Below are positions 3,753 through 46,500 of a DNA stretch of 64,000 nucleotides, in pieces. This DNA is from Diphasiastrum complanatum (Eukaryota > Streptophyta > Lycopodiopsida > Lycopodiales > Lycopodiaceae), in assembly GCA_029204225.1 (NCBI GenBank), contig CM055113.1, positions 6,358,647 to 6,422,646 on the forward strand. The letters are read 5' to 3'. A program made the translations under genes and the position numbers. The stretch's first letter is position 1. Every line of letters begins with the position of its first letter. Under the pieces are notes generated by a model. That model was not told the DNA's origin. It worked only from the letters and a program-made list of their open reading frames with translations, and ran no database searches.

Positions 3753-3950
3753 TCATATACAATTTGTTTGTGACATGTCATTATCACCTATTCTTGTTCT
3801 TAACAAATATAATATATCTTTGTTGAGTGCGTTTGTAATTAGGTCTACGGTCATGTCTGGGTATTTGACAAATAGGTATTTTCTCCTCGCTTTATCCAAC
3901 TTCTGTTGTTTGCCATCAAGAATGTGATCAATCAGTGATAGAGAGTTCAT
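3753..3950 (-). pseudogene. possible copia RNase H C-terminal tail
   Basis: The frame contains a stretch reading PDMTVDLITNALNKD followed by a short hydrophobic tail. This resembles the ADI(F/L)TKAL signature at the end of copia RNase H domains. Only this short motif supports the call, and flanking sequence is non-coding, so it is at best a small relic. Confidence 0.3.
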
Positions 3951-4744
3951 TCTCTCTTTCCTTTTGCTTCTATTGGCATGTGTACACCATGAGTGTCAGG
4001 CCCTCCTCCTTGTTCTCAACTTCTGTGATATTAACTTGGTCAAGAATATATTGTTTGACGGCTTGTTTTTTTATGCAATCATGCACCATGTGTCCTGGTC
4101 CCATCACAGGTTAAGTCCATTGGGTTATGTCTTAAAGGTCATGTCTTCCAAACATGGCCCCCAAGTTGTGGCTAGAACCATGACCCAATGATCACTTCAT
4201 TATTTGAATAGCCTATTCAGAAAATCTGATTCCATATCCCTATCTGAAATGCAACTCCTTGCCTTAGCGGTTTTCGAGACAGTACGAGTTTTGGAGCGCC
4301 TATCAAGGGCCAGTACAAGTGATGCCTAAAATGTATCTCCCTACCCCTGTCTACGTTGTGACTTCTGGACCCCAATTAAAATGTGACTACTTACCTTAAA
4401 TGAAACTCTCTACCTAGATGAAACTCTCTCTGCCCGTGCTGCCTACATTCACTTCCTAACCTCAACTAAAATGTGACTCCATGTAGTTGCCAAAAATGTG
4501 ACTCCCTAGATCACTATCTAAAATGCAATACTTTGCCTCAATGCGACTTTAGCCAGCTTCAAGTTGTTGATTTCCAAAAACTTGAGGTAACTTCCAAGTT
4601 ATTAAGTTTCAAAATTTTTTTATTGAATTATGTTATTATAGTGATGTGCGTATATTTCTTTTACTCTTCCAATACCTAACTAGTAAATAAGTGTTTGTCC
4701 TAAGCCTTTTAATCATTGTATAAGGACCCAACCATCCAGGCCTA

Positions 4745-5490
4745 AAATTTCTTTGCTAATTTTATTTTCTTTAAAGGATAATGAGCTTAAAGCTTCACAC
4801 TTTTGGGTCTTTAAAAGCACATCCTTAATATAATTTTTTTGGTTAATATAATCTGAAAACTTTAGAAAACATTGTTAATCTGGGACTAAGAGTAATTCAA
4901 GAATATCGACCATATAAAGTATGAAATGGATTCTTGAACAATCAATGTATGAAAAGCATGTAGAACATAGAGAGAGTACATTGATATCATCTATTCAGCC
5001 TTGCAATCTTAACTCAAATCAAGTTCAAGTTGATGTTTTGATTGACATTTTAAACGCATGAATTCAAGCCTATACAAAAGGATAGGCACTTTGTTGGAGG
5101 CAATTTCTTATGCAACTCCTTCACATTTCTTTTCTTATATGCATAAAACTTTCTACTAATGTCATTTTCTTTGAAGGTTAATAAACATAAAGTTTCGGAC
5201 TTTCTCTGAAGTTTTTAAAAATACATCTTTATAATAATCTTTCCTGTTTTTTTGTTGTGTAATCTATAAATTTCGTAAAATTGCCATTACATGCATATCA
5301 TTGTTGAGCAATTTTAAAGTTCGAAAAATATTGTAAGAGTCTAAAAGTAGGTGGAAATAACATATGGTTTTCTATTATTTTCAACTTGAATCAACTTTGA
5401 GAATGATTTAATTGACTTTTTTTAAAGCATAAATTTAAACCTATATTAAAAGATAGGCGCTTGGTTGAAAGTTATTCCTTATGCGATATT
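4745..5490 (+). repeat. ~370-400-bp tandem duplication in AT-rich DNA
   Basis: Two diverged copies lie head to tail. 'attttctttaaaggataatgagc' at ~4763 pairs with a similar run at ~5163, and the 'gataggc' landmark with its preceding words at 5081 pairs with 5452. The start of a possible third copy is at ~5510. The surrounding interval 3242-5720 shows no convincing gene; 4240-4560 also has irregular repeats of 'taaaatgtgactcc'. Confidence 0.65.
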
Positions 5491-5720
5491 ATGCCCCTGC
5501 TTAAAATATTTTCTTTAGAATCTTTTCGTTTTTGAGAGTCCTAGAAGCCCTATGACATTTCCCTTCTTGCTAAATTTTGTTCATAAGCAAGGTATAGTGT
5601 AGAGAATTTATGATTAAAAAACAATGTTTTATGATAAATGGTAGAGCTCAAATCCCATACAATGAATTTTTAACTCTATTATTTATAAGAATCATTTTTT
5701 CATTTGAATTCACAAGATTA

Positions 5721-6191
5721 CTATGAGCTACATATTATCATACTATTTACAAAAGCCAAGGAAGAACATCCATTTGTCAAAAATAACATTAATGAATTGT
5801 ACCATAATTGTTCATGAATGTCACAACGCAAATCGCACATAAGAAACTTTTGTACCAAGGCCTTTAAAAAAATTCTCATGTCTTTCTCGCTGAAGTTTGA
5901 GGAATCTTTTGATGAACATAAATCTAAAAGGGTGAAAGTCGTCAAAACATTGCCTCGACTTTTTTTCTTTTTTTTGTGATACTCACATAATAGATTTTTT
6001 TGATGAGCATTCACAGAGTCTATCTTCTCAACATGTTTTTTCATCTTGGAAAGTGTACCTTTCAAAATAGTACACCTTGATGTGGATGCAATCAAAGGAG
6101 TAACCGATAGCCTATCAGGCGGAAACAAAGAATAACTAAAATTAATCAAATGTTTATATTCGCAAGAATCTTTGAATGGCTCTTGCCCCAA
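5721..6191 (-). pseudogene. downstream remnant of HAD-phosphatase-like gene
   Basis: A 156-residue frame on the same strand and just downstream of the HAD-like exon. The upstream words (WPYLL..., then GQEPFKDS) could continue the same protein. Residues ~80-100 are a lysine run. I recognise no independent domain. It is probably the C-terminal region of the gene that contains 6281-6640, separated from it by a stop or a short intron. Confidence 0.3.
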
Positions 6192-6280
6192 TCAATTGTT
6201 TTCGATATAATACGATATGCTTGGAGCATCTCTAACACAAAGCAAATATGGCCAAAGAATTGTGTTCAGAAAATCAACTT

Positions 6281-6640
6281 CTAACAATTGTTAAAGGGAT
6301 GAAGAAAAATCCCATTACCAGGTGGATTCATACAAGCTTTGTATGGAGCATCATCAATCAACAAAGTATTGATTGGAAGCATTTCGTAGCATCTGTTCCA
6401 GAGGTAGCTCAATGGCTCGAAAAAGGCTCGAACTTGTCGGTTTCCGGGCATTCTATACTTTGTCTCACTAAAGCATTTTGTTTGATCCCAAACAATATGA
6501 AAGTTATAACGTCGTTTTCCAATTACATTAAAAAATGTAACACATTCTTGGATGATTTGCATTGTCATAGAGCTCCATTCAAGTTAAGTATTATATATTT
6601 CATAGGCCGATGGCACATTGATAGTCCCAATCCTGCAATA
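6281..6640 (-). pseudogene. FCP1/NIF-type HAD phosphatase domain remnant
   Basis: Read on the minus strand, a tract ending in tattgcag (intron-acceptor-like, near 6640) leads into KYIILNLNGAL (~6569-6601). A stop or frame break follows, then WDQTKCF, then NTLLIDDAPYKACMNPPGNGIF (~6300-6370). These match the motif I loop and the conserved (L/V)DD(S/A)PYKA-NPP segment of plant FCP1-like HAD phosphatases, nuclear enzymes that dephosphorylate Ser/Thr on protein tails. The motif I nucleophile Asp is Asn here and an in-frame stop separates the motifs, so the copy is probably inactive. Confidence 0.55.
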
Positions 6641-6784
6641 CAATCACATTGCAATTAAAAAAAACAAACGTGCCATTCATTGAACTTTAATTTGATACAT
6701 TTATAATCATCTTTTTGATAGGACTTGGCAACAAGATAAATTGTCACTCCAAAGAACTTTATAATAGACTGAATACCAAAAATT

Positions 6785-7345
6785 TTATTCTATAAATGTT
6801 CCAAATTCATTGATGGTTGCAAAATCCATTTCGTCCAAAATTTGTTGAAGCTCTACATTAGTTTTGGAGCATGCATATGGTTGATGCAATATGTTTCCAT
6901 GAGTAGGTTTGAATTTATAAAGAGATCCAATCCTAGCTTTACCAAAACTAGTATTCAAAACAATTCTGATTTTTTCATCCAAATAATGAAGAGCATAATC
7001 ACATTGAATGTTTGAATTACTTGGACATTTCAATGGACCTTTTCCACTTCCAATATCCACGATAGAAGAAGAATCAACAATAGAACAATCCACTGAAAGT
7101 GATTCAAAGAAATCAATGTCACCACGCTTGACAAGTGAACAACCAATCTTCTCATTTGTGATTGTAGCACATTGCAATGTTTGAAAATACTCCTCAGCAT
7201 TATTTACCAACATATCTTGGTCAATAGCATGCACATCCATATTTGTTTCTAATATTGCATCGTATTGTAAGTCTTGCACTTTGCATGAATTTATAGTCTC
7301 AAATTCAACTGCATCCATTTTTGAAAGTCGTAATTGAGAACAGGC
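6785..7345 (-). CDS. hypothetical exon upstream of HAD-like remnant
   Basis: A ~187-residue open stretch preceded by a pyrimidine-poor but AG-ended acceptor-like site (tttggcag at ~7346). The protein is acidic and has no domain I can name. It contains IVDIGSGKGPLK, which resembles the glycine-rich motif I of SAM-dependent methyltransferases but may be chance. It could be the N-terminal region of the HAD gene or an exon of the gene upstream. Confidence 0.35.
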   Translation of the reverse strand, partial: ACSQLRLSKMDAVEFETINSCKVQDLQYDAILETNMDVHAIDQDMLVNNAEEYFQTLQCATITNEKIGCSLVKRGDIDFFESLSVDCSIVDSSSIVDIGSGKGPLKCPSNSNIQCDYALHYLDEKIRIVLNTSFGKARIGSLYKFKPTHGNILHQPYACSKTNVELQQILDEMDFATINEFGTFIE

Positions 7346-7668
7346 TGCCAAACAACACATGAGAATATAAATATAAAAACAATTTTCAAACCAATATAAA
7401 ATTTATAACTTTTATTTTAAATTTAATACATACCAAACTAACAAGTACAATTCAAAATCCTTATTAGAAAACAGCTCAAAATATTGTCAAACTAGTCTAG
7501 ACAACTCAAAATAAATTCAAGTAACATCTGCGGCACACAAAAAAAAGTACAACAAGATCAAATATAATTTATGTCATGAAACTTATTTACTTCAAGTTTG
7601 ATTCAAATAAAAGTACATCTTTTACAAATAAACATCAACAAAAGTTGAAACCATACATAATTAGAATC

Positions 7669-8091
7669 TTAATTACCAAGATTATGTTCATCATTATTTT
7701 CCTCATGCAAGTCCTCTTGTATTTGGAAATCTTCATTGACTTGCTCGTTTGGATCCATAGCATTAGAAACAACAATATTTTCATCATCATCCACATTATC
7801 AAATATGTCTTTTTGAACCTCCACAAGTTGCATGAGTGCTGTTGTTGCTTCCTTCGAGAATCCAACATGTTCACCAATAAATTGTTCTTTACTATCATTG
7901 ACATCTACTACATCTGAATGCGAAACTCTTTTGTCATCCCTTGAAACTTGATAATTAACAATCTCGTTATAAAATGCCTTCAAAAACTTCTCTCTTTCAG
8001 AGATGTCAACAAAAGAGATTGGACATCTTTTGTTAACAAGACATGCCCTTCCTAATCCTCCATATGTAGATCCATCCAGTATGTAATCAGA
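7669..8091 (-). CDS. last exon, methyltransferase-like C-terminus
   Basis: The exon opens with SDYILDGSTYGGLGRACLVNKRCPISFVD after an AG acceptor at 8092-8093. The pattern (hydrophobic-LDG-x-G-GxxxxACLxxxR, then xxFxD) fits the motif I SAM-binding region and following strand in the C-terminal part of N6/N4 DNA methyltransferases (PF01555-like order). A very acidic tail (DNVDDDEN..., EDLHEENNDE) and a stop follow. Joining a donor at 8260 to this acceptor keeps the frame (TLTG/SDYI). The SAM-site glycines are altered from the usual GxGxT, so activity is doubtful. Confidence 0.45.
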   Translation of the reverse strand, partial: SDYILDGSTYGGLGRACLVNKRCPISFVDISEREKFLKAFYNEIVNYQVSRDDKRVSHSDVVDVNDSKEQFIGEHVGFSKEATTALMQLVEVQKDIFDNVDDDENIVVSNAMDPNEQVNEDFQIQEDLHEENNDEHNLGN

Positions 8092-8260
8092 CTCAAATGC
8101 AACAATAAAACAAAGAGTGTTAAATTGTGTGTTCACAATGGACAAACATTAAAAAACTGTGATGACTATTTATGAGAATTATGCTACAATTCATCTAATA
8201 ACATCATCATAATATATATTAATAAGTCATTCGTTTACTCTATACAACAAATATGTACAC

Positions 8261-9049
8261 ACCTGTCAATGTGGCAACCAAATGACTCCAGATTTCATTA
8301 CATTTTGCTCGTGGATGAACAATGCCACTAAAAAGCTTCACCATGCTATATTTTGGAGTGCTCATCATTATTTGATGACGATGTAGTAATTTCTCTTTGG
8401 AATTTGCATCATGTCTTTTTTTGATAACAGGAGGATCAGGACTTGCTATCTCATCATATATAAATTGCAATCCTTTCTCTTGCATAAGACCTATAAGGTA
8501 TGGATTTTCATCATCTTTAGAAACAAAGATGAATAAAACTGTATCAAATTGACAGTTTTGCAACTGTGCATCCACTCCTCCGTTGAACTTATAGAACCCA
8601 ATTGTCATTTGCACATGGCCTACCAGTCTTTCTATCTCTCGAAAGCAACATCTTAGGTTTTCACTTGATGAAAGAAAAGCAACTATGTGGTAATGTGTTG
8701 ATGTTGTTTTAACATCAACCAAATTAAAAAACTTACGGAAGGAGAGCTCAACACAATCAGAGAAAGAAGTGGAATCGAATATGCCTAATGTGATATGTAA
8801 AAAGGGTATAGGAATGCGAAACGGATCTATATCGATAAGCTTGTCAATCCTATGAACAATCCAAGGGTCGTTTGTTTGAATGACTTTGACACCATGGACA
8901 AAATCATACCTATCTTTGATAGCCTTCGTAGCATTATCTGGAAAAGGCTCTGTTTCTTTATTTCTAAGTTTAGCCACCTCTAGCCAACTACAACATTTTG
9001 AAGATAGATCTTTCAGAAACTCAGAGGTGAAACTATATTTTTCCTCCAA
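8261..9049 (-). CDS. central exon of ParB/methyltransferase-like gene
   Basis: An open frame of ~263 residues that runs to a GT donor at 8260. The last part (FSGIVHPRAKCNEIWSHLVATLTG) fits the helix that precedes motif I in permuted N6/N4 DNA methyltransferases. A clear DPPY/DPPW catalytic motif is not visible; the nearest text is ASPDPPVIKK. The 5' end overlaps the upstream exon in another phase around 9033-9049, which implies a 1-base frameshift and so a pseudogene or an assembly error. Confidence 0.4.
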
Positions 9050-9283
9050 ATAATGCCATTTTTGGTGGAGGTTTTTTCAAGGCTTCAACAAAATATTGTT
9101 TGATATCATTTTTAATAATTCTTTCATCTTTGACTCTCGTGCAAAATTTTTCCAATAACAATTTTTTTTTCAAATGATCAGCATCCTCCAATGGAAAAAA
9201 GTGAATGGATCCATCGATCAAGCCATCAAAGAGAACTGACATGTCTTTCTCCTTCAATCCTTGAACAGGTCGCAATAAATGAC
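9033..9283 (-). CDS. exon of ParB/methyltransferase-like gene
   Basis: The exon begins HLLRPVQGLKEKDMSVLFDGL after an AG acceptor at 9284-9285. A consensus GTGAGT donor at 9371-9376 defines a 93-bp intron upstream, and the splice reads ISG/HLLRP without a stop. The protein section is lysine-rich (DADHLKKKLLLEKF). No separate domain is recognised. The intron holds a short (GTTT)n run. Confidence 0.45.
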
Positions 9284-9659
9284 CTTTCACAACAAACAAA
9301 CAAACAAACAAACAAAAATAATTTAAACTTAAGTAATTATTGTAGAATAACATTTTACATATCATAAAACACTCACCTGATATAATTGACATCTCAGTTG
9401 GATTATCGCTTATTTCACCGGAACTGTTTCATAACCTTCCTAGCCTCCATAGCTAACAAATTTTTTTCCATTTCTTCTAGTTTTCATCCTTCAAATAGAC
9501 CCAATTGTATATTTCTTTTGGATCATTTTTTCTCAAAACATTACTCAACATGCTTCTGAAATTCTACACTAACATAAATAAAGATGCATTAGTTATTCTA
9601 TAATAATCATTTGAAAAAAAAAAAACATTACTAGCAGTAATTATCTAAATCAGAAAAGA

Positions 9660-10373
9660 AGATATACCTTCCACTCTTTAGGAGCTTGCCCACCTTTTTT
9701 GTGTTTTGGGACGACCCAATGACTCGCATTGTAGTCTTGCTTGTAGCAATTGCTCCATGTATGAGCTCTTTAACTTCCACTTTTCTGATATTTCATTAAG
9801 CGCCCTTGATATAGCAACACACTCAGTAGATGAAATCAAATGGCTCAAGATACGTGATTTTCGACTTTGGTAATATTTTTTTAGAATATGTCCATTTTCA
9901 ATTTTTTCACCTTATTTCCATAACAACGCTAAAATATTTTTAGCCGCGTCGACTGTGTGTTGGCCATCAACTATATAAAAGCGAATATATGGTTTATGTA
10001 CATCCTCAACTCTTTGGACTTCTACCAATTGAATTGTACTGTCCTCTTTTTTATGAAATGGAATTAGATCAGTTGGTGCAGATATGATTTCAGGTGTTTG
10101 CAAAAAAGAAGCAACCATATTACTGCAATACTTCAAATTGAAAGGTCTGCAATTGTATTGAGGAGGAGACAAAACACACCTTTCAACAGATGTCACCGCT
10201 AAACTATTTGAAGAACATCTACAACGGGCTTCTGGCTGATCTCCAACAAAGAGAACCAATCCTATCATAATTTTAAGTTCAGATGTTAAGTTAAATAATT
10301 TGAATTTGTTGAAGACTTGGCCATCTTCAAGGACTTCCACAAACTTGCATTTAGAACAAGTTTGTAGATACAC
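9660..10373 (-). pseudogene. ParB-like domain region
   Basis: The segment contains PTDLIPFHKKEDSTIQL, then KPYIRFYIVDGQHTVDAAKNI. The VDGQHxxxAAK block corresponds to the conserved (V/I)DGxHR..AA motif of ParB/sulfiredoxin-fold domains; Arg is Thr here. After a stop near 9912 the same frame-style continues (AISRALNEISEKWKLKSSYMEQLLQAR) to ~9690. ParB-like domains are often fused to or next to DNA methyltransferases in phages and mobile elements, which fits the methyltransferase-like exons downstream. Its upstream portion (~10195-10373) is shared with 46.2-46.4 kb. Confidence 0.45.
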
Positions 10374-10400
10374 TTTACTTTTTCAACAGCCTGTAGAAAT
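10195..10400 (-). repeat. segment shared with 46210-46400
   Basis: About 200 bp here and at 46210-46400 are clearly alike in nucleotides. On the minus strand both encode a run close to EVL(E/Q)DGQVFN-FKL--LTSELKIMIGLV. The protein-level conservation in one frame suggests both are fragments of one gene family, the ParB-like one, rather than an LTR. Confidence 0.7.
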
Positions 10401-11060
10401 ACACTAAGTTTGTACAACTCGCATTTTTCACACTTTTCGAAAAAATACAACAGTCTCACAAATTGAAGAAAAAACACTAAGTGTCACACATCTCGCATTT
10501 TTTCGAAAACTGCGACACTTGCCTTCGGCTTCTTTCGTTCAATTATTTCGAAGAAGTCAACTTATGTGTAGGTCAAAAGTTCAACTGTTTTCAACACCTT
10601 CGGTTTTTTTGCAAAATGTGAGAGAGAAAATTTTTGAAGGTCATCTACTTTTCAGAGTTGAACTCTTTTAGGGCACTTTTGGCTTTTTCACAAAATCCCG
10701 AAGAGAGAGAAAATGCCGAAGGTTGTCTATTTTGAACGAGGAACGTTCCCAGCCACGTCCCAGCATTTTCGATGTTAGAGAAAACCACTTCCCCTAAAAT
10801 GTGAAGTGAGAGATGTCCTCGGGCACGTCAACATTCCCTGATTCGTTGACTATGTGTACAATGTATAGTTGTCACACAAGCCAAATACTTCCAAATACAA
10901 CGACTTGCCTAATTATATGACAATCATTTATTGTAATTAATACATGGATGCAATCTATAAATGGATCATCCAAACACACTCTACGTGATGCTCCATCCAT
11001 GAGACGAATTATTTTGAGCCTCCCAGTTACGCCGTCATTATGGTTGTAACTGTCATTGTT
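10401..11060. other. non-coding, short degenerate repeats
   Basis: This stretch holds diverged repeats of words such as 'ctcgcattttt', 'aaatacac-aagt' and 'ccttcggctt/ccttcggttt', but no gene I can support. The first part continues the ~30-bp repeat pattern also seen at 46380-46480. Confidence 0.5.
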
Positions 11061-16564: not shown

Positions 16565-17680
16565 ATGACTAACTGTTGTCATCATAGATGTTGTCAATTG
16601 GCAAGACGTGATGTGGTTTTAAAGACACGAGTAGAATATTGGGGTCAACCATTTTCGGATAGACTCAGTTTCATATGGGATGCAATGTCATTGTCTCCCA
16701 GAGGTAGTACTACGCTAATGCATGATGGCTTTGAAGTTTGTCAAAAAGCATGGTATAGAATCTATGGAATTTCAAGAGCCACATTTCATTGATACAAACG
16801 AGCATGGCTTTCAGGTTGTGTGAAAGGCATACATGGAAATGAAGGCATCTCAAAGAAATCTCAACACGTCACTGCAACAAAAACAATATGGCATTTTGTA
16901 AAAACAACGGCTGATCGAATTCCCAACAAAAGTCGAACAACTATTGAGGGAAGACGAGAAACACAATACATGCTACCAAGTATTTACAAACAAAAGGATG
17001 TCCTACAACAAGTAAATCAAAACTTGAGAATGGCACGCATAAAAGGAGTATCTCAAGTGACATTTAATAGGATGTGGAATAAAGAATCCAAAGAGGTGCA
17101 TATAGCAAAAAACAATGGATTTTCCAAATGTGACTTTTGTACAGCAATCAAAATGAAGCTGATGTCTACAAAGGTTCAAGTTGAAAGAGCACAATACATG
17201 AAAGCGAGGGATGAGCACAACAAATTGAAAAGACAATGTCGTAGTGAGTATTATCGCAATCGTGCGCTATCATGTACAATGCCAGAAGAGTTCCTGTGCA
17301 TAATTCATGATAAAATGGATCAAAAAATGACATGTGTACCAAGATTATTTCCTGAGCCAAAGGCAACAGCCCAAGCATTTCTGTTGCCTATCTCTTTAAC
17401 ATGAATGCTAACACATGGACATGGTCCAAATGGATATGGTCATTTTGCGCTTGGACTTTGGAAAGGTGATTCTAACTTCACAATAGGTTCCATGGCAAAA
17501 TGCTTGAGGGATCTTCAGCTATTCGATGGGAAATGCATGGGTGATCTCCAAAACCTACACCTAGAAACAAGAGAGAACTTATTCACATCATTACTTTCAC
17601 AAAAGACTATCAATAACATACAAATTTTAGCTCCAAATCCTAAATCAAGGTCTTTCAAAGCGAAGGAAGACTCTCTTTGA
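16565..17680 (+). pseudogene. DUF7869-like putative transposon protein, broken
   Basis: One reading frame runs across the whole interval, interrupted by TGA stops at 16790 and 17402. Recognisable blocks in order: CQKAWYRIYGISRATFH, KTTADRIPNKS, SKCDFC (a Cys pair), HDKMDQKMTCVPRLF, LTHGHGPNGYGHFALGLWKGDSNFTIGS. This arrangement, with an (I)xDxMDQ segment, a GH-rich segment and an HDSN-like segment, resembles the DUF7869 family, thought to be DNA-transposon-encoded in plants and other eukaryotes. The region past 17655 shifts frame. No terminal inverted repeats were found by eye. Confidence 0.6.
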
Positions 17681-46204: not shown

Positions 46205-46500
46205 ACTTAGACCCAAACTATTTGAAAAACGTCTACAATAGGCTTCCGGCTGATCTCCAGCAAAGGATAACCAATCCTATCATAATTTTAAGTTCAGATG
46301 TTAAGCTCAACAATTTGAAGTCATTGAAGACTTGGCCATCTTGAAGGACTTCCAAGAACTAGCATTTAGAACAAGTCTGCAGAAATACATTACTTTTTCG
46401 ACAATCTACAGAATTACACTAAGTGTCACGACAGTCTGCAAAAATACTCTAAGTGTCGCAACAATCTGCAAAAATGAAAATAACCGATCTACAAATCATG
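46205..46500 (-). pseudogene. fragment of the ParB-associated protein family with ~30-bp repeats
   Basis: The minus strand encodes EVLQDGQVFNDFKLLSLTSELKIMIGLV, matching the 10195-10373 region. Upstream on the minus strand (46375-46480) a ~27-34-bp unit like 'acaatctgcaaaaatactctaagtgtcg' occurs about three to four times. This is a broken second copy of that gene segment lying next to copia LTR-like DNA. The interval 46500-47115 after it has no supported gene. Confidence 0.55.

Follow-up and report, generated by a model that had tools for sequence, protein, structure and literature searches.

A decayed copy of a multi-copy, intron-bearing gene family with ParB-like, methyltransferase-like and phosphatase-like regions in Diphasiastrum complanatum

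The window analyzed here, a stretch of 64,000 nt on a large contig (C22) of the 1.74-Gb assembly of Diphasiastrum complanatum, holds on its minus strand one decayed copy of a dispersed, multi-copy, intron-bearing gene family. The order that recurs across the copies is an N-terminus, a ParB-like domain, a permuted (beta-class) amino-methyltransferase-like domain, a linker, and an FCP1/NIF-like phosphatase region. Judging from the sequence, we put at roughly 55% the probability that the window copy is the dead remnant of a ParB-methyltransferase accessory gene of the type carried by transposons. A preliminary description of this DNA had modeled the ParB-like and methyltransferase-like exons, which were recovered here, and had missed the multi-copy nature of the gene, the phosphatase region at 6643–6120, and the chimeric 5′ end; as a whole, its observation was partly confirmed and its interpretation partly supported.

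When the genome was queried with the ParB-like exon, 150 of 5,646 candidate places were scored, and the 64 matches lying over the ParB part merged into 62 places on 21 contigs. The methyltransferase-like exon gave 116 matches in the genome, with identities down to 27%. At least 26 of the 62 ParB-like places had a methyltransferase-like exon no more than 3 kb downstream on the same strand, none had one within 3.5 kb upstream, and at least 28 had one within 10 kb on any side. This count took 64 of the 150 ParB-query matches and 73 of the 116 methyltransferase-query matches; those left out of the latter were mostly smaller pieces adjoining a counted match or duplicates on other contigs, and the figure of 26 is thus a lower bound. 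The ParB-like stretch of the window is more than a chance reading frame because frames that resemble it closely and are still open occur at other places in the genome (83% identity, E = 2e-47; an open frame of 450 residues at L004/L033). Twenty fetched loci and the window, 21 sequences in all, collapsed to 16 distinct loci, and the phosphatase region was detected in 10 of these (tblastn, 1e-4), nine times in order beside the ParB part and once (L037) inverted and rearranged. The subfamily L047–L050 keeps the order despite identities of 39–41% in the ParB part and 32–35% in the phosphatase region. Before profile building, the near-identical sequences L032, L035, L045, and L050 were removed, leaving 17 rows including the window; the methyltransferase profile had 12 rows.

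The ParB-type motif of the preliminary description was found as YIVDGQHTVDAAK at 9939–9977 on the minus strand. All 17 aligned copies contain QHT, and DGQHT is intact in 11 of the 17 (a set that includes the near-identical pairs L044/L045 and L047/L049). The conserved arginine of the DGQHR/GxxR motif is absent, a threonine occupying that position. It is in the DGQHR motif that the active-site arginine presumably lies. According to the accessible text of PMC5512222, the ParB/sulfiredoxin-type active site holds an arginine. The PHROGs ParB family phrog_1033 was matched weakly by 9 of 12 members (best E = 0.0048), a PHROGs family of unknown function scored better than ParB in one member (E = 4.5e-4), and NCBIfam DGQHR was reached by 1 of 12 members (0.052). 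Plasmid ParB sequences were too uniform for a profile. The motif, the weak library matches, and the setting beside a methyltransferase make it likely, though unproven, that the domain is ParB-like.

The second domain appears to be a relative of the permuted amino-methyltransferases, an assignment for which profile–profile comparison gave support by way of another family in this genome, named here after its member L051 (C12:10145600–10148800). Alignment of the two families with hhalign over motifs X and I gave a score of 44.2 (P = 1.1e-5; 0 of 300 permutations, top 27.9), supporting a C-terminal motif X/motif I half homologous to the beta-class enzymes, and comparison with 12 phage methyltransferases plus L051 gave 29.8 (0 of 500 permutations, top 23.3). 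L051 itself matches Pfam N6_N4_Mtase (2.1e-12), RsrI (1.3e-5) and CcrM (7.1e-5) in the PDB, and 188 phage records. A genome search with Pfam N6_N4_Mtase returned 1,605 candidates, and each of the 150 that were scored exceeded the curated cut-off, the match in most cases covering the C-terminal half of the profile. The text upstream of L051 looks ParB-like by eye only and is frame-broken; the piece tested had no profile support. The S-adenosylmethionine (SAM)-binding FxGxG motif I reads DG(F/S)TYG(A/G)LG in the window, L035, and L043, compared with an intact DLFSGSGTT in L051. No (D/S)PPY motif IV was present in the open methyltransferase pieces of the window, L034, and L043; a PDPPV lies ∼60 residues before the motif X/I stretch in the window and L034 and is absent from L043. 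The earlier recognition of a motif I half stands as a motif-I-like tail with profile–profile support, degenerate and with no direct library match, and the earlier remark that there is no clear DPPY holds at the expected place, with PDPPV as a caveat. Because motif I is altered and DPPY is lacking where expected, methylation by the window family is judged unlikely from its motifs.

Comparison with the other copies established the decay of the window copy (Table 1). Family homology starts sharply at 10191, the N-terminus having been lost by 5′ truncation. The stop that had been reported near 9912 is in frame, and the frameshift reported near 9040 was located near 9057–9064, where the methyltransferase-like tblastn match splits (9302–9057 and 9064–8261). 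Both GT-AG introns proposed earlier were found, that at 9376–9284 in phase 1 and that at 8260–8092 with the frame kept; the exact 3′ splice site of the latter is uncertain because other copies retain the preceding residues VESDYILDG. The exon text that follows the first intron, GHLLRPVQGLKEKDM, is found again in L034 and L043 and, altered at one place, in L031. The earlier gene end at 7669 could not be retained, as a further in-frame intron (7676–7345) leads into the linker exon. A deletion of ∼136 bp at 6574–6577, directly behind the motif-I-like LNLNG of the phosphatase region, completes a list of damage that includes the 5′ truncation, the in-frame stop, and the frame changes. The earlier view of a damaged gene was thus borne out, and a full protein is unlikely to be made from a copy broken at several points.

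The phosphatase region matched Pfam NIF (PF03031; cut-off 21.8 bits) in L034 (50.1 bits, 3.1e-13), L039 (41.1 bits), and L048 (25.3 bits); L050 (18.0 bits) and the window fragment (16.8 bits, E = 0.0057) fell under the cut-off. By sequence, the window piece found UBLCP1 in the PDB at E = 0.046. The catalytic motif I of HAD phosphatases is DxDx(T/V). None of the six copies in which this part was observed (window, L031, L034, L039, L046, and L048) has it; all carry NLNG or DLNG instead. Whether this region belonged to the same protein is finely poised, and we give a little less than even odds to two neighboring genes that travel together, one ParB-methyltransferase-like and one NIF phosphatase. 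The linker reading frame ends in the same NEF(G/E)TFIE stop in all five copies examined (window, L031, L034, L039, and L046), leaving no visible way to read on in frame into the NIF exon. Against two genes, a conserved TTGCAG acceptor precedes the NIF exon in four of those five copies, and the exon therefore has an upstream exon; no first exon of its own was identified for the NIF part, and strand and order are unchanged across divergent subfamilies.

We estimated the ratio of nonsynonymous to synonymous substitution rates (dN/dS) by NG86. For the ParB part between subfamilies, dN was 0.2–0.6. Of the 65 pairs, 57 had saturated dS; the remaining eight, in which dS was at least ∼2, gave ratios of 0.08–0.25. 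Between subfamilies the methyltransferase exon gave 0.12 (window versus L043; L043 versus L034 was saturated), the motif-I exon 0.21–0.29, and the NIF region 0.22–0.27 in five pairs among L034, L031, L039, and L046, six other between-group NIF pairs being saturated. Within subfamilies, 23 of 26 ParB pairs had ratios of 0.34–1 and the other three exceeded 1; the values were 0.65 for the methyltransferase exon, 2.53 for the motif-I exon (64 codons), 0.58–0.77 for NIF, and 0.49–2.79 for the linker. The contrast between the two sets of ratios indicates that the deep branches were constrained, the degenerate methyltransferase included, whereas close copies are relaxed; these estimates point to past purifying selection between divergent subfamilies, followed by drift of the close copies. 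Among L031, L034, L039, and L046, dS of the ParB exon (and first methyltransferase exon) is mostly saturated, compared with ∼0.9 for NIF between related groups, a mismatch that could reflect exon exchange or alignment effects.

Several results weigh against the reading of the window copy as a transposon-type accessory gene. The 9.9-kb loci examined showed neither transposon ends nor a target-site duplication or a transposase. Pfam ParB_N had no match in the genome, compared with 10 of 14 control genomes positive, and membership of the ParB family, as claimed earlier, therefore stays unproven. The hhalign comparison with phage ParB was marginal (21.8; 0 of 300 permutations, but top 21.1, and the motif out of register), and the ParB piece of L051 scored 14.0 against the family, a value reached by 29 of 300 permutations. 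The methyltransferase-like exons themselves had no methyltransferase match in Pfam, PHROGs, or PDB searches, and the score against the 12 phage methyltransferases alone was 23.3 (0 of 200 permutations but top 23.2; reversed 15.8). The between-subfamily ParB ratios are rough because of the saturation of dS, and constraint was weak in the linker between subfamilies (0.65–0.71) and in NIF for L046 versus L047/L048 (0.53–0.63). Single-sequence AlphaFold models had mean pLDDT values of 42.6 and 34.2, too low to use. The profile searches recommended in the preliminary description yielded support for a methyltransferase through the L051 alignment; the direct libraries gave no methyltransferase and weak ParB matches.

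Since neither element ends nor transposase were found, an ordinary, lineage-expanded plant nuclear gene family, grown by tandem and segmental duplication and rich in pseudogenes, is a serious rival to a transposon passenger, though on balance the less likely of the two; its product would be a DNA-binding or chromatin protein that has a phosphatase as its partner. The near-identical pairs L031/L032, L044/L045, and L049/L050 extend over nearly the whole 10 kb fetched, like segmental or haplotype copies, ParB-like places are grouped on contigs C4, C6, and C10, and the past purifying selection fits as well. The same places are, however, spread over 21 contigs, the ratios within subfamilies are relaxed, and the sole eukaryotic ParB-methyltransferase protein described in the accessible text of PMC12477816 sits in a transposon. 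That the second domain is no methyltransferase relative and its motif I a chance resemblance agrees with the empty Pfam, PHROGs, and PDB searches and the lack of DPPY where expected, but is very improbable given the L051 alignment over the motif X and I stretch (P = 1.1e-5, 0 of 300 permutations).

If the transposon-type accessory gene is the correct reading, the family would descend from ParB-methyltransferase proteins carried by eukaryotic transposons, with a large relative, the L051 family, in the same genome. The protein may have bound DNA of its carrier element or of the host, possibly serving, without catalysis, as a binding factor or a sensor of SAM that altered the chromatin or transcription of the element. 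The phosphatase-like neighbor domain may have had RNA polymerase II, or some other protein bound to chromatin, as its target. A further proposal, which we hold to be distinctly doubtful, is that a plant ParB-methyltransferase lineage lost methylation yet stayed long under selection, coupled to a phosphatase of the type acting on the polymerase C-terminal domain. As a DNA-binding module it would have shielded or activated mobile elements, or have been taken over by the host. On this proposal it would have done so without adding methyl groups to DNA, in a genome that also houses a much larger ParB-methyltransferase repeat family with the look of active enzymes. To our knowledge, few reports describe eukaryotic amino-type (N4-cytosine/N6-adenine) DNA methyltransferases of the permuted class. 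The presence of both families in one green-plant genome would make it possible to ask directly whether plant transposons write or read N4-cytosine/N6-adenine marks.

The preliminary description had further proposed capture or horizontal acquisition, a claim that found no backing, as no prokaryotic or viral relative emerged at the sensitivity used. A tblastn search of phages gave five records, all at E ∼0.5; in viral contigs, queries from the window family and from L051 led nowhere; and no relative was found in prokaryotic genome contigs at that sensitivity. Sequence searches of the PDB with the ParB, methyltransferase, and T1 pieces returned nothing useful, nor did Rfam.

The features of the window copy and its flanks are collected in Table 1. 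The earlier gene start at up to 10373 was incorrect: residues 1–64 of the first open reading frame (ORF; 10192–10382) match many places in the genome, most with stops, and were rejected as part of the gene because they belong to another, high-copy repeat, which happens to lengthen the open frame. The stretch 10201–10409 is 86% identical to window 46215–46424, and the same repeat occurs in L038. Downstream, the match of the window to L031/L032 spans 6023–3784 at 94.9% identity; no Pfam family was found for the stretch 3784–5753 in the single ORF tried, and a short ORF near 3753–3995 is common to the window and L031/L032. Elsewhere, the window contains pieces of long terminal repeat retrotransposons and a 203-residue open frame with CxxC-type text (16793–17404), which matched no Pfam family over cut-off and is perhaps part of another mobile element. 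Matches to chlorophyll a/b-binding proteins, 37 in number, mark the source as green and photosynthetic. ORFs beside the family in L034/L035, which we take to be transposase-like, were rejected as part of the family: they belong to a separate repeat (L034:5856–7100 and L035) with 9,444 candidates. Of its 150 scored places, 148 lie elsewhere, and there the homology never sets in before residue 18 and usually does so at 20, which marks the repeat as separate. Those 148 places are 76–92% identical, many with open frames.

Table 1. Features of the window copy and its flanks (positions of the window)
Feature	Position	Strand	Remarks
Unrelated dispersed repeat opening the first ORF of the preliminary description	10192–10409	minus	Abuts the truncated gene; not part of it
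ParB-like domain	9681–10191	minus	DGQHT motif at 9954–9968; in-frame stop at 9912–9914
GT-AG intron, phase 1	9284–9376	minus	Read from the sequence
Methyltransferase-like exon	8261–9283	minus	tblastn with the L043 exon, 57% and 50% identity
GT-AG intron, frame kept	8092–8260	minus	Exact acceptor uncertain
Exon with degenerate SAM-binding motif I (SDYILDGSTYGGLG) and acidic tail	7677–8091	minus	hhalign with the L051 family, P = 1.1e-5
GT-AG intron, joining motif-I exon to linker in frame	7345–7676	minus	Identical donor and acceptor text in L035
Linker exon with terminal NEFGTFIE-stop	6785–7344	minus	Identical end in 5 of 5 copies examined
NIF/FCP1-like phosphatase region	6120–6643	minus	Frame change near 6269–6281; ∼136 bp missing
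C-terminal part behind the phosphatase region	5721–6119	minus	Similar text in L039, L046, and L031
Downstream stretch	3784–5753	minus	Among 20 loci compared, common to L031/L032 only

Among the open-access literature searched, as represented by titles and the opening parts of abstracts, no report of a ParB, methyltransferase, and phosphatase combination in a plant was found. The label of an undescribed system was nonetheless too strong, because a ParB-methyltransferase accessory protein has been reported in the brown-algal Ectocarpus transposon Sola1-1_Ec32 (accessible text of PMC12477816). Like NIF/FCP1-like phosphatases (PF03031), the family has a region that covers most of the Pfam profile and contains an LIDDAPYK-type motif; it differs from them in having NLNG/DLNG rather than DxDx(T/V) as motif I and in its linkage to ParB-methyltransferase-like exons. 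With the L051 family it shares a homologous C-terminal methyltransferase half, whereas L051 has an intact motif I, a strong Pfam match, more candidates, and no phosphatase in the 3.2 kb examined. The bdelloid rotifer N4CMT is encoded by the host, as an allelic pair, deposits N4-methylcytosine at transposons, and carries a chromodomain (PMC8885841, in its accessible text). Like the family, it is a eukaryotic, intron-bearing gene in which a permuted N6_N4_MTase domain is joined to a chromatin-related domain, and it differs in being a host gene with a chromodomain; ParB is not mentioned in the text of that paper as accessible (PMC8885841). Compared with the Ectocarpus protein, as far as the accessible text of PMC12477816 describes it, the present family lies in a green-plant host with a large genome, shows no transposase or element ends in the loci examined, has degenerate methyltransferase motifs, and is followed by a NIF-like phosphatase region. 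Of the known kinds, it is nevertheless the ParB-methyltransferase accessory proteins of algal transposons that the family, going by its predicted domains, most resembles and appears to fit.

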